A DNA stretch of 37,646 bases from a virus: the IMG/VR virus record IMGVR_UViG_3300025872_000141, positions 1 to 37,646 of that record; one strand, written 5' to 3'. The translations under genes and the position numbers were made by a program. Positions 4,753-11,836 of the stretch are shown one piece after another. Under the pieces are notes generated by a model that searched no databases, was not told the origin of the DNA, and saw only the letters and a program-made list of their open reading frames with translations. Each line of letters begins with the position of its first letter. Positions within the stretch are counted from its first letter, which is position 1.

Positions 4753-5042
4753 CCAAAACCGAAGCAATCGACGCCGTTGAAGTGGGCAATGCCGAATGGA
4801 TCGAGCGGGCTGAGAAGCTGGCGCTGATGTGGTTGAGGAAGACCGGCGAAGGGGCCATTACATCCGATGACATTTGGCGGGTTGTGAAACATGCCGGCAT
4901 CCCTCGCGAACCTCGCGCAATGGGCGCACTAATGCGCAGGCTTCAGCGTAGTGGTGTGATTGCGCCGATGAACGTCTGGACTCCATCAACCCGCCGCGAG
5001 TGCCACAGCAGGCCGGTCAGGTGGTGGAGGGTTGTTGTATGA
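4749..5042 (+). CDS. Hypothetical phage protein with winged-helix-like pattern (97 aa)
   Basis: 97 residues, GTG start overlapping the regulator stop (GTGA) and ATGA overlap with the helicase. The chain is a helix (AEWIERAEKLALMWLRKTG), then ITSDDIWRVVKHAGIPREPRAMGALMRRLQRSGVI, then a C-terminal CHSRPVRWWR. That 'xxDDxWxxxxxxGxxxEPRAxGxxxRRxxxxGxI' order is one I associate with small conserved phage proteins beside replication or regulator genes. It looks like a winged helix, but I cannot name a family. Confidence 0.65.
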   Translation: MTKTEAIDAVEVGNAEWIERAEKLALMWLRKTGEGAITSDDIWRVVKHAGIPREPRAMGALMRRLQRSGVIAPMNVWTPSTRRECHSRPVRWWRVVV

Positions 5043-7747
5043 ATTACGAAGCATTTGTGGAAGGCAAGGCAAGACGAGAAGTAGCAACGGGTCACGAGCC
5101 AAGCGCGCTTCCCGATGCCATGTTTGATTTCCAATCCGTAATCGCATCATGGGCTATTCGCCGTGGTCGAGCTGCGATTTTCGCAGATACCGGACTCGGC
5201 AAAACACTGATGCAGCTCGCATGGGCGCAGGACGTGGCAAGCCATACCGATGGCATCGTGTTGATTCTCGCGCCATTGGCAGTATCAGAGCAGACCATCG
5301 AACAGGGGCAGACTTTCGGGATTGATGTCAGGCGCGTTCCGCATGGGCAGACGCCAAGCGATCCGGGCGTGTGGATCACGAACTACGAACGGATGGACGC
5401 CATAGACTTTGAAAGTTTGCACGGGCTTGTCCTGGATGAGTCAAGCATCCTCAAGAGCCATGACGGGAAGACCCGGACAAAGATCATTGATGTTGCGCAG
5501 GGCATCCCATACAGGCTTTCCTGTACCGCCACGCCATCGCCGAATGACTTTGAAGAACTGGGCAATCAGTGTGAATTCCTTGGCGTTATGTCTCGCACCG
5601 AAATGCTCGCGACGTACTTCGTCAATGATACCGGCGACACTGGAACATGGCGGCTGAAAAAATATGGCCGGGTGAAGTTCTGGGAATGGATGGGCACATG
5701 GGCTGTAGTGCTTCGCAATCCGTCAGACATCGGATTTAACGGCGATCAGTACATTCTCCCGCCTTTGGAATACTTCGAGCACGTTGTGGAATCTCGTGTT
5801 CTCGGGGATCTGTTCGCAAAACAGGCCGGCACACTTCAAGAGCGCAGACAAGTCCAGCGGGATTCAATCGAGGATCGGTGCAGGAAAGTCGCGGAGATTG
5901 TCGCGAAAGAACCTGATGAGCCGTGGTTGATCTGGTGCCATCTGAACGATGAGGCCGAAATGCTCGCATCACTGATACCTGGCGCTGTGAATGTTCAGGG
6001 ATCGGATACACCAGAGTTTAAGGTTGCGGCTACGCGGTGGTTTGTCGGGGCTGATTCATTGCGAAGCACGGAGTTTAGCGATAAACTTACTCCATCTCAA
6101 ATGGAGCTGCTGGGATGGACGCAAAGAAAGAAAAACGACGCGCCTACATGCGCGAATACTACAAAAACAACAAAGGGAAATTCAGGCCAAGAACGCCAGA
6201 GAAAAGAGCCGAGTACAACGCTAACAGGCGTAAAAAGTACGCAACTGATGAGGGCACACGCCAAAAATACATATCCGCCGCAAAACAGTGGTCCGCAGCA
6301 AATCCAGAAAAACGCAAAACCCAGCGAGTCAAAAGGTACGGGCTTGACGCCGACGGATACAACACAATTTTTGAGCAGCAAGGCGGGAGGTGTGCAATCT
6401 GCGGATCAACTGATTGTGGAGATAGCAGAGGAGGAAGATTCCACGTTGACCACTGCCATTCAACAGGGGTTACACGAGGAATCTTGTGTGCAAATTGCAA
6501 TCTCGGGCTCGGGAAATTCAAGGATTCAATCTCATCACTTGAACGAGCCATTGAATACCTCAAGGCGCGCGCCGGTTCTGATTAGCAAAGCGCGCATGTT
6601 CGGGTATGGGTTGAATTTCCAGCACTGCGCACGCATGGCATTTGTCGGGCTGGATGACAGTTTCGAGAAGTTCTATCAGGCCGTCAGGCGGTGTTACCGC
6701 TTCGGGCAGAAGCGAAGCGTGCAGGTTCATGTTGTCATTGCCGAGTCCGAGGGGATGATTCTGCGCAACCTGAAGCGCAAAGAGACCCAGCACCATGAAA
6801 TGAGCGCATCAATGATCGATCACATGAGGGGAATCATGGACAAAGAACTGAGGGGCACAACCATCGTGACGAACGAGTACGAGGAGGACGTTTACGAAAC
6901 GCCGAACTACACGGTCTATCTCGGGGACTGCGTAAAGCAATCCAGACACATCCCGGATGAGTCGGTTGATTACAGCGTGTTTTCCCCGCCGTTCGCTGAT
7001 TTGTTTGTCTACTCAAATTCAGATTACGACATGGGCAATTGTTCAGATGATGCGGAATTCGCGGCGCAGATGAAGTTCCTGATTGCCGAATTGTTCCGAG
7101 TCATGAAGCCCGGCAGGAATGTTTCATTCCATTGCATGAATCTTCCGACCACAAAAATGCGGCAGGGATTCATTGGTCTGCGAGACTTTCGAGGGGATCT
7201 GATCCGCGCATTTCAGGACGCGGGGTTTATCTATCACTCAGAAGTCTGCATCTGGAAAGACCCGGTGACTGCGATGCAGCGGACAAAGGCGCTCGGACTG
7301 CTCCACAAGACCATCCGCGAGAATGCCACCATGACGCGCATGGGTCTGCCTGATTACGTGGTGACGATGCGCAAGCCTGGCGAAGTTCAGGATCGCGTTA
7401 AACACGGCGACGACCTCCCCGTTGCGCTGTGGCAGCAGTACGCATCGCCGGTATGGATGGACATCAACCAGTCGCGGACCTTGAACAAACTGCCGGCAAG
7501 GTCGGAAAACGATGAGAAGCATATGTGTCCGCTTCAGCTTGACGTGATCGAGCGGTGCATTCATCTGTGGACCAGCCCGAATGATCTGGTGTTCAGTCCG
7601 TTTACTGGCATCGGATCGGAAGGTTACTGCGCGGTGAAGATGGGGCGGCGTTTTGTTGGGATCGAGTTGAAGCGCCAGTATTGGGAGCTTGCAATCGAGA
7701 ACATCAACGACGCGGCGAACACTGAGCAAATGGACCTCTTCGCATGA
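5039..7747 (+). CDS. SNF2-type helicase fused to a DNA methyltransferase, with an out-of-frame endonuclease insertion
   Basis: 902 residues from MNYEAFVEGK (ATG at 5039, ATGA overlap). The helicase N-lobe has Walker A DTGLGKT (50-56), DESS (133-136) and SCTATP (161-166). The C-lobe has WLIWCHLNDEAE (~296-307), the GSD-PEFK segment (~321-327), then after a gap LISKARMFGYGLN and QAVRRCYRFGQ (~548-558). The methyltransferase follows with FSPPFADLF (~648-656, motif IV, N4/N6-amino type) and VFSPFTGIGSEG near the C-terminus (motif I, beta-class order). Residues ~340-508 are low-complexity and unlike any helicase. In another frame that DNA encodes the endonuclease VII-like gene at 6115-6585. The likely role is methylation and protection of phage DNA, somewhat like P1 DarB, though that parallel is inference. 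Confidence 0.9.
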   Translation: MNYEAFVEGKARREVATGHEPSALPDAMFDFQSVIASWAIRRGRAAIFADTGLGKTLMQLAWAQDVASHTDGIVLILAPLAVSEQTIEQGQTFGIDVRRVPHGQTPSDPGVWITNYERMDAIDFESLHGLVLDESSILKSHDGKTRTKIIDVAQGIPYRLSCTATPSPNDFEELGNQCEFLGVMSRTEMLATYFVNDTGDTGTWRLKKYGRVKFWEWMGTWAVVLRNPSDIGFNGDQYILPPLEYFEHVVESRVLGDLFAKQAGTLQERRQVQRDSIEDRCRKVAEIVAKEPDEPWLIWCHLNDEAEMLASLIPGAVNVQGSDTPEFKVAATRWFVGADSLRSTEFSDKLTPSQMELLGWTQRKKNDAPTCANTTKTTKGNSGQERQRKEPSTTLTGVKSTQLMRAHAKNTYPPQNSGPQQIQKNAKPSESKGTGLTPTDTTQFLSSKAGGVQSADQLIVEIAEEEDSTLTTAIQQGLHEESCVQIAISGSGNSRIQSHHLNEPLNTSRRAPVLISKARMFGYGLNFQHCARMAFVGLDDSFEKFYQAVRRCYRFGQKRSVQVHVVIAESEGMILRNLKRKETQHHEMSASMIDHMRGIMDKELRGTTIVTNEYEEDVYETPNYTVYLGDCVKQSRHIPDESVDYSVFSPPFADLFVYSNSDYDMGNCSDDAEFAAQMKFLIAELFRVMKPGRNVSFHCMNLPTTKMRQGFIGLRDFRGDLIRAFQDAGFIYHSEVCIWKDPVTAMQRTKALGLLHKTIRENATMTRMGLPDYVVTMRKPGEVQDRVKHGDDLPVALWQQYASPVWMDINQSRTLNKLPARSENDEKHMCPLQLDVIERCIHLWTSPNDLVFSPFTGIGSEGYCAVKMGRRFVGIELKRQYWELAIENINDAANTEQMDLFA
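6115..6585 (+). CDS. Endonuclease VII-like HNH gene nested out of frame in the helicase
   Basis: 156 residues. A basic N-terminus (MDAKKEKRRAYMREYYKNN) leads to the recombination endonuclease VII signature: YGLDADGYNTIFEQQ (75-89), CAIC (93-96), HVDHCH (110-115) and CANCNLGLGKF (125-135). A TGGAG lies upstream of the ATG. The whole gene lies within the helicase/methyltransferase frame at 5039-7747, in the +2 frame, and ends where recognisable helicase sequence resumes. It is probably a mobile homing-type nuclease rather than a packaging resolvase, because it is one of several scattered nucleases each sitting in a DNA-metabolism gene. Confidence 0.88.
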   Translation: MDAKKEKRRAYMREYYKNNKGKFRPRTPEKRAEYNANRRKKYATDEGTRQKYISAAKQWSAANPEKRKTQRVKRYGLDADGYNTIFEQQGGRCAICGSTDCGDSRGGRFHVDHCHSTGVTRGILCANCNLGLGKFKDSISSLERAIEYLKARAGSD

Positions 7748-10413: not shown

Positions 10414-10616
10414 ACAAGGCCATTTATGCCCTCTGTGCCATCGCATACGCCGCGATCCACGCGTGGGCATGGCATGGTGGCGGTGGTAGTGCAGAAGCCC
10501 GCCAAGCGCCTCCTATTGCGCCTCAGATGGACATAAGGCAAAAGGTCAAAAAGGTCAGCACCACGCGCGCGGTCGTCAATGAGCCGATCAAAACTGATTG
10601 GGAGCAATGGGGATGA
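10410..10616 (+). CDS. Small signal-anchored protein (68 aa)
   Basis: 68 residues from the ATG at 10410. The first 20 (MNKAIYALCAIAYAAIHAWA) form a hydrophobic segment after one Lys, fitting a signal anchor or signal peptide. A Gly-rich turn and a basic, Pro-containing tail follow. Upstream in-frame sequence belongs to the preceding gene. The stop at 10614-10616 overlaps the ATG of the long methyltransferase-associated frame (10613) as ATGA and lies one base before the methyltransferase start at 10618. Confidence 0.55.
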   Translation: MNKAIYALCAIAYAAIHAWAWHGGGGSAEARQAPPIAPQMDIRQKVKKVSTTRAVVNEPIKTDWEQWG

Positions 10617-11836
10617 CATGGATAATCAGCAGGGCACTTTGCGAGAGCTTGCGCTTTTCGCCGGAGCGGGAGGGGGAATCCTCGGCGGGATACTCTCAGG
10701 ATGGCGGACAGTCTGCGCCGTCGAAATCAACCCCTATGCCGCAGGCGTACTTGTCGCCAGACAAAACGACGGCATCCTTGCGCCTTTTCCTATATGGGAT
10801 GACATCAGAACTTTTGACGGCAAGCTGTGGCGAGGAATTGTTGACGTTGTATCGGGCGGGTTTCCTTGTCAGGACATCAGTTCTGCCGGAAGAGGAGCCG
10901 GAATCGAAGGAGAGAAATCAGGACTGTGGAAAGAAATGGCCCGGATTATTGGCGAGGTACGACCACGCTACGTCTACGTGGAAAACAGCCCAGTTCTCAC
11001 TTCTCGGGGACTCGGAGCCGTACTCGGAGACTTGGCCGCGATGGGGTATGACGCGCAATGGGGGGTTGTATCTGCAGCCGATACCGGCGCGCCTCATCTG
11101 CGCCAGAGAATCTGGATCAGGGCCGTTAATGGCAACACCAACGGCAACAGCGAATCAGTTATCACCCAGCATGATGAAACACCCTGGATGTCGAGCGTGG
11201 TGGCCGACTCCGCAAGCATCGGACAATCGAGATCGGGGGAACCTCTCATCGCCATGCATCGCAAGACGCAAGCAGAAGGGCAAGCAAATCATGTTGAGCC
11301 AGTCGGTTTCTATGGAAAATGGCCGGCTGAACCCGACGTGGGTCGAGTGGTTGATGAATTGGCCCTTAGGCTGGACTTCGCTGGAGCCGATGAAAAGTGA
11401 AAATTGGGAATACTGGAAGGAAAGCAGCGCAACGTACATTCAAAGTAACGGAATGCGTGAAATGTGGTTCGACAGAGACCCTTCAACGCCATCACAAGGA
11501 CAGGAATCCGCTGAACAATACGCCAAACAACGTAGAGATTCTGTGCCAAATTTGCCACACAGCGGAGCATATGACGGACGGAACATGGGGATCGGGGAAA
11601 GTGGGCCCGGCGATCTGCAAAGTTTGCAGCTCAACGTTTCAGCCGGTCAGAACGAGACGTGCTTCGATATGCAGCAAAGGATGCCTATTGGAATGGGGGC
11701 GGATCAACGCTGCAAAACGATGGGATACACCCCGCGCGTTATAACTGGATTGATAGCTAGGGCGGACCGACTTACAGCCATTGGCAATGGACAAGTTCCG
11801 CGAGTGGCTGCGACAGCATGGGAAATGCTGAGTTGA
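10613..11836 (+). CDS. Long +1-frame open reading frame overlapping the C5 methyltransferase; carries motif X at its end
   Basis: 407 codons open from the ATG at 10613, which overlaps the previous stop as ATGA and has GGGAG ~10 nt upstream. It covers the same DNA as the methyltransferase and the HNH gene in a different frame, yet shows protein-like motifs. These are STWKTAQFSLLGDSEPYSET (121-140) followed by WPRWGM, MATPTATANQ (173-182), WWPTPQASDN (196-205) and NPTWVEWLMNWPLGWTSLEP (240-259). Residues 382-407 contain ADRLTAIGNGQVPRVAATAW, the motif X end of a C5 methyltransferase. From memory, WPTP and LNPTWVEWLM sequences are annotated in phage methylase proteins. It may be a real second product or a frame kept open by chance; motif X must be used by something. 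Confidence 0.6.
   Translation: MTWIISRALCESLRFSPEREGESSAGYSQDGGQSAPSKSTPMPQAYLSPDKTTASLRLFLYGMTSELLTASCGEELLTLYRAGFLVRTSVLPEEEPESKERNQDCGKKWPGLLARYDHATSTWKTAQFSLLGDSEPYSETWPRWGMTRNGGLYLQPIPARLICARESGSGPLMATPTATANQLSPSMMKHPGCRAWWPTPQASDNRDRGNLSSPCIARRKQKGKQIMLSQSVSMENGRLNPTWVEWLMNWPLGWTSLEPMKSENWEYWKESSATYIQSNGMREMWFDRDPSTPSQGQESAEQYAKQRRDSVPNLPHSGAYDGRNMGIGESGPGDLQSLQLNVSAGQNETCFDMQQRMPIGMGADQRCKTMGYTPRVITGLIARADRLTAIGNGQVPRVAATAWEMLS
10618..11400 (+). CDS. C5 cytosine DNA methyltransferase, interrupted before motif X
   Basis: 260 residues from the ATG at 10618. Motif I FAGAGGG (14-20), motif IV GFPCQDIS with catalytic Cys84, motif VI ENSP (122-125), motif VIII LRQRIWI (161-167), a short variable region, then EPDVGRVVD (238-246, motif IX side). 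It would transfer methyl from SAM to C5 of cytosine. Motif X (GNGQVP) is missing from this frame: after ELALR the sequence is interrupted at about 11371, and the expected continuation ADRLTAIGNGQVP lies at 11762-11836, in frame +1. The insert between holds an HNH gene. The truncated protein may be inactive unless the frames are joined. Confidence 0.88.
   Translation: MDNQQGTLRELALFAGAGGGILGGILSGWRTVCAVEINPYAAGVLVARQNDGILAPFPIWDDIRTFDGKLWRGIVDVVSGGFPCQDISSAGRGAGIEGEKSGLWKEMARIIGEVRPRYVYVENSPVLTSRGLGAVLGDLAAMGYDAQWGVVSAADTGAPHLRQRIWIRAVNGNTNGNSESVITQHDETPWMSSVVADSASIGQSRSGEPLIAMHRKTQAEGQANHVEPVGFYGKWPAEPDVGRVVDELALRLDFAGADEK
11371..11761 (+). mobile_element. 391-nt insertion carrying an HNH gene, splitting the methyltransferase
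   Basis: Removing 11371-11761 joins ...GAATTGGCCCTTAGG to GCGGACCGACTTACAGCC and restores a continuous motif IX-X region reading ELALRADRLTAIGNGQVP. The left boundary ends CTTAGG, the right GCTAGG, so the exact edges are uncertain by a few bases. The HNH frame starts 26 nt inside the left edge and ends 17 nt before the right edge, leaving no room for a standard group I intron core. 391 is 3n+1, explaining why motif X is now in another frame. Confidence 0.6.
11397..11744 (+). CDS. HNH endonuclease, zinc-linked, inside the methyltransferase
   Basis: 115 residues from a GTG that overlaps the methyltransferase stop as GTGA. CVKC (20-23), RHH at 31-33, NNVEILCQICHTAEH (44-58) form a zinc-stabilised HNH site. 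A second zinc knuckle follows (CKVC 74-77, C92, C96), ending GRINAAKRW. I recognise this two-part layout from free-standing phage HNH proteins. It belongs to a different HNH group from the genes at 1453 and 6115. Probably a homing endonuclease specific for the methyltransferase gene. Confidence 0.88.
   Translation: MKIGNTGRKAAQRTFKVTECVKCGSTETLQRHHKDRNPLNNTPNNVEILCQICHTAEHMTDGTWGSGKVGPAICKVCSSTFQPVRTRRASICSKGCLLEWGRINAAKRWDTPRAL

Follow-up and report, generated by a model that had tools for sequence, protein, structure and literature searches.

A homing-endonuclease gene very probably resides within the helicase-methyltransferase gene of this virus, carried by neither an intron nor an intein and with the host frame read through across it; homing itself is presumed. 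The stretch analyzed here (the window) is a complete IMG/VR virus record of 37,646 nt. The anatomy of the insertion, its phase with the host gene, the open host frame, the pattern of conservation and a recent transfer between two Gordonia phages are directly observed. We propose that an Endonuclease-VII (His-Me/HNH) homing gene inserted into a loop ahead of helicase motif V. The HNH protein would be translated in one frame from its own start, and the same DNA, open and in phase in the host frame, would allow the full host protein to be made, with a loop of ~171 additional residues, disordered and mostly polar, projecting from the C-lobe. Presumably, where a co-infecting phage has an empty allele, the nuclease would cut it, and repair would copy the insert together with short flanks.

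An HNH gene inside a helicase-methyltransferase gene

The host gene (5039-7747, plus strand, as are all features given within it) encodes a SNF2-like helicase fused to an N6/N4 DNA methyltransferase, according to the ORF listing, Pfam and PHROG. It is a single open frame of 915 codons when counted from 5000, where a GTG is a possible alternative start to ATG 5039, and it runs to 7747. Its Pfam matches are SNF2-rel, DEAD, Helicase_C and N6_N4_Mtase, its PHROG match is helicase/MTase, and a structure match assigns the helicase the fold of SNF2-type motors. Comparison by tblastn with ~150 relatives places the helicase N-lobe and the first portion of the C-lobe at 5039-6049. Helicase conservation breaks there, after RWFVG (residues 333-337), and restarts at APVLISKARM, which is motif V (6569, residue 511). 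The C-lobe restart, delimited against homologs without the insert, spans 6569-6860 and contains the HNH stop codon; the methyltransferase domain identified by Pfam follows at 6965-7696.

The inserted segment lies at 6050-6565, with limits accurate to a few codons relative to the empty homologs, and the host frame is open throughout. It carries an Endonuclease-VII-type HNH gene of 156 amino acids (6115-6585; ORF listing, Pfam and PHROG), out of frame with the host such that host = HNH+1. This ORF takes up 471 nt of the ~510-nt insert, so that only ~20 codons fall outside it. It matches Endonuclease_7 (PF02945) with an E-value of 1.9e-24 and 85.8 bits, against a gathering cut-off of 23.6; the domain itself maps to 6325-6564 (profile search, E 2.8e-26) and is the sole PF02945 match in the whole record. 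The CxxC, DHCH and CxxCN residues are present in the window protein, and across the family the catalytic and zinc residues (D-H ... N and the CxxC pairs) are invariant and match those of Hpy99I and T4 endonuclease VII, which the profile places in the same family. The protein is presumably an active nuclease. T4 endonuclease VII resolves junctions and is encoded by a free-standing gene, and Hpy99I is a restriction enzyme; the window HNH differs from both in being nested within another gene.

Searches with the two helicase halves (tblastn) returned ~150 loci, nearly all of them empty. In 74 distinct empty junctions, the interval spanning motifs IV (WLIWC) and V (RVLISK...) is always 62 residues long, and the segment is therefore an insertion, not a host domain. 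In pairwise DNA alignment of the window to one relative (L002), gap placement is messy, owing to local divergence around the site. The original prediction, made from the letters of the window, had placed an Endonuclease VII-like HNH gene out of frame within the helicase C-lobe, as the ORF listing and Pfam confirm, and had described the host frame as open through it; indeed, the 915-codon ORF has zero stops across the insert. It had also raised the question of whether the insertion is a multiple of 3, and the window exceeds the empty homologs by 513 nt, or 171 codons. Finally, it had singled out HNH-less homologs carrying the ~170-residue segment as evidence against it, and none occurs among the ~74 distinct empty homologs.

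Carriers at two sites and transfer between phages

HNH and profile searches, together with phage records, yielded 144 distinct HNH ORFs. Of these, 21 are nested with zero stops inside a longer host frame: 20 in helicases, and one (L252) within an intein of a terminase. The same kind of insertion, which had been proposed for a search in other phages, is thus found in 20 helicase-flanked cases at two sites. Site B, the window's own, precedes motif V (L001, L159, L067, L160, L205, L207, L300), and site A lies between AEIV and motif IV (L137, L161, L166, L212, L221, L282, L283, L288-L293). Nestedness was initially defined by openness, and the test was redone using the helicase flanks alone: all HNHs with helicase on both sides (20/20) are in phase, with zero stops in the host frame. 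An open alternative frame over the gene was found in 0 of ~120 free-standing HNH relatives; L164, for example, has 9 and 17 stops in its alternative frames.

Among the 20 helicase-nested genes, 18 use one relative frame and two (L137, L221) the other. The stop density in free-standing genes is 0.047 per codon in the +1 frame versus 0.098 in the +2 frame, and this halved density can explain the predominance of host = HNH+1. In the tree, nested L137 is sister to free-standing L164 (99/97), so nesting was gained or lost more than once. There are at least two origins, and relatedness limits the independence of the 20 cases. The L164 gene (L164:2905-3450) stands immediately downstream of an intact, empty helicase, and may be a source or an escape form. 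One site-B carrier, L300, lies on a contig of the bacterial MAG CSMAG_437, which may represent a prophage or else a phage contig caught up in the binning.

Two cultured Gordonia phages, Malisha (L282; OP434458 gp71) and Squiddly (L283; MN096370 gp64), carry a site-A element; their host genes are annotated merely as DNA helicase, and the nested HNH genes are unannotated. The two share a block of ~840 nt centered on the insert with a single mismatch, and the sequence on either side is ~15% different. The near-identical block reaches beyond the insert by ~110 nt on its upstream side and ~190 nt on its downstream side, the footprint of homing with co-conversion in a recent transfer. Horizontal spread across divergent host alleles is thereby observed for Malisha and Squiddly only, and not for the window's copy. 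A relative, Holliday, is empty and 81% identical over the matched part, with a 3' flank at the site unlike Malisha's. The two carriers and this empty relative make both homing and tolerance of the loop directly testable.

The two reading frames and competing explanations

We estimated the probability of an open host frame by synonymous resampling, using either the GC3-matched codon usage of control HNHs or a shuffling of each gene's own codons. GC3-matched resampling gave P(no stop) values of 0.0005-0.026 per nested gene, with 0.0125 (~0.013) for the window. Own-codon shuffling raises P(no stop) for many genes, and for the window it reaches 0.38, since the codons in use are already adjusted to avoid stops. 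Although this last value might suggest that A-rich HNH genes encoding much K, R and E commonly have an open alternative frame, the ~120 free-standing relatives never are, against 20/20 nested genes, which moreover use two relative frames. Pure chance is rejected by these controls and is scarcely credible as an explanation. The open frame is beyond chance; the window alone gives modest evidence of this, and the comparison (20/20 vs 0/~120) decides.

Pairwise comparison of carriers shows conservation of the HNH reading frame, where third positions evolve fastest, and of the helicase flanks, both at nearly saturated synonymous sites. The host-frame identity of the insert is approximately at the level forced by HNH coding, and slightly higher in a few pairs. 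Selection on the host-frame amino acid sequence was rejected on these grounds. The host-frame peptides contain fewer hydrophobic residues than expected in every nested gene except one. Thus, only openness and polarity seem to be kept in the host frame, with its sequence close to free.

In the AlphaFold model of the window host protein, the helicase lobes are mostly above 90 pLDDT, and residues 362-507 are below 50, so that the host-frame insert peptide is predicted to be disordered. Five of the seven site-B inserts (L067, L160, L205, L207, L300) have a CxC near both insert ends in the host frame, compared with 0/120 for CxC at both ends in free-standing +1 frames. The window and L159 inserts are without CxC pairs, and the feature is therefore not general. 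The N-terminal pair mostly lies beyond the HNH ORF, so HNH coding does not explain it. We hypothesize that the CxC pairs may form a zinc clasp that staples the loop at its base; in the AlphaFold model of L067, the blocks holding the insert ends have pLDDT values of only ~36-63, that is, low confidence.

Shine-Dalgarno-like sites suggest that the nested genes may be expressed separately. In the window, GGAG (6103-6106) lies 8 nt before the HNH ATG, and GATAAACTTACT (6080-6091), a degenerate copy of the motif GCTAAACTGGCA, sits exactly at -35 of the HNH start. A Shine-Dalgarno-like match precedes the start of about half of the nested HNH genes, and about half are without one. The motif GCTAAACTGGCA, or a near form of it, occurs exactly at -14 in five genes of this latter kind (L282, L283, L067, L166, L293), in a weaker version at -14 in L160, and at -35 in L212, L288, L290 and L300. 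Within two mismatches, it is found upstream of 10/21 nested versus 1/120 free-standing genes; L292 is another nested gene with the motif upstream. It is possibly a -10 promoter element or a binding site. Its placement at -14 or -35 would fit a -10 promoter whose transcripts are leaderless or leadered, and a leaderless transcript at GCTAAACTGGCAAC-ATG would fit separate expression of the HNH. Inspection by eye found no slippery heptamer for ribosomal frameshifting or reinitiation at TAAACTGG.

Two splicing elements could in principle relieve the host of the insert. Introns are common vehicles of phage HNH genes, and a self-splicing group I or group II intron, removed from the mRNA, would be in keeping with an allele-specific insert at a conserved motif. 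However, searches of the window region, L282, L137 and L160 with Rfam covariance models of group I and group II cores returned nothing at E<=1, and an insert in which 471 of ~510 nt are HNH leaves little room for a ribozyme. Moreover, an intron requires neither a length divisible by 3 nor an open host frame, and 20/20 have both. We consider this explanation very unlikely. Removal at the protein level, by a novel protein-splicing element in the manner of an atypical intein, would account for the open host frame and fixed phase, and the HNH family does sit out of frame in genuine terminase inteins. Nonetheless, Pfam detects no Hint or intein splicing blocks at the insert ends in the window's or the other helicase hosts, only ~20 codons are available beyond the HNH ORF, and the host-frame sequence is unconserved and predicted to be disordered, which makes protein splicing at the helicase sites highly improbable as well.

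The more serious competitor concerns the fate of the enzyme. Motifs IV-VI are essential in SF2 motors, so a 171-residue loop beside motif V could impair it, and read-through might merely sustain translation from a dead helicase into the methyltransferase. The gene arrangements would allow this: the methyltransferase is fused downstream in the window, its start overlaps the helicase stop in Malisha, and the open frame would preserve its expression in either arrangement. But the helicase codon changes between Malisha and Squiddly outside the insert are 65 synonymous to 7 nonsynonymous upstream and 26 to 3 downstream, a ratio to be read with the proviso that the insert may be recent, and the flanks of the long-diverged L212, L288, L289 and L291 remain 65-80% identical with near-saturated synonymous sites. 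A dead helicase thus appears unlikely, if clearly less so than splicing. In keeping with read-through of a tolerated loop, we infer that the host protein functions with the loop in place.

Precedents and related loci

This kind of element has been known since 2025, when Arsenault, Gosselin and Gogarten (PMC11855218) described the ShiLan domain, also the subject of an earlier paper (PMC9957025, 2023), as an HNH that lies out of frame in a methylase of actinophages, whose own frame stays open. ShiLan, compared here by its description only, shares with the window insert the out-of-frame HNH, the open and in-phase host frame, the lack of an intron or intein signature, horizontal spread and a predicted loose loop. 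It differs in that its HNH is I-HmuI-like with zinc fingers and resides, with a GTG start, in a methylase of Mycobacterium phages (PMC11855218), whereas the HNH described here belongs to the Endonuclease-VII family and sits in the helicase C-lobe. It is found across many phage groups, at two sites and in two relative frames, and was compared with a control set. The second case in PMC11855218, Pacc40 gp60, is distantly homologous to the helicase-methyltransferase of the window and also has host = HNH+1. Its insert (L305) resembles several site-B inserts in that the host-frame peptide has CxC pairs at its two ends, but occupies a third site (after RPSDI, before GYDLPP), has an HNH of another family and was reported from one phage. 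The gene (L305:2102-6127) is labelled "anaerobic ribonucleoside reductase large subunit" and is actually a helicase-methylase.

New here are the Endonuclease-VII family, two further sites and carriers well beyond Mycobacterium phages, as well as both relative frames, the control set, the co-conversion footprint and the terminase inteins. The 2025 report concerned a few Mycobacterium phages; to these are now added another nuclease family, several sites, many phages and controls. Selfish nucleases can apparently inhabit core enzyme genes without splicing, with a second frame kept open, and genes nested in larger ORFs in this way escape annotation.

The terminase case L252 (1745-4219) matches PF14890 and terminase families, and is recognizable as a Hint/intein element. 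All distinct relatives of its nuclease gene (60/60, among L308-L387) are out of frame, with host = HNH+1 and a stop-free host frame, and in most of these terminase hosts intein blocks A and G are picked out by regular expressions. We found no paper on out-of-frame HNH genes in terminase inteins, within a partial coverage of the literature. A broader picture, which we hold tentatively and would not quite call probable, is that of widespread overprinted homing elements under two-frame selection, for a nuclease in one frame and, in the other, for a tolerated loop that is polar and free of stops, with a CxC...CxC zinc clasp in several lineages and a related out-of-frame lineage in a splicing terminase intein. 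If this is true, the read-through loop and the terminase intein are two solutions to one problem.

In its overall interpretation, the original prediction stands as regards the insertion, its phase, the open frame, the existence of other carriers and the absence of an HNH-less segment, but the parallel that it drew with a methyltransferase locus, whose plan the helicase was said to repeat, does not. That locus (METHYLTRANSFERASE) is a C5 methyltransferase at 10579-11836 of the window. Its motifs I-VIII lie in a first frame that stops at 11400, and GNGQVP is in another frame (ORF 10598-11836) that overlaps nearly all of the first; an HNH ORF lies at 11397-11744. From PCQ to GNGQVP there are 925 nt (mod 3 = 1), whereas in nearly all relatives this spacing is a multiple of 3 in one frame; L389 and L417 share the window's spacing. 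Given this spacing and the stop at 11400, the locus is not a simple frame-preserving insertion, and was rejected as a second example.

In the phages Dante (L284:1471-5013) and Clifton (L285:1453-5004), the homologous helicase-methyltransferase gene carries an intein-like insert with Hint and LAGLIDADG domains in its methyltransferase part. These in-frame-nuclease inteins resemble the window insert as selfish nucleases in a conserved phage gene with a continuous host frame, but unlike it, inteins splice out, and their nuclease is normally in frame.
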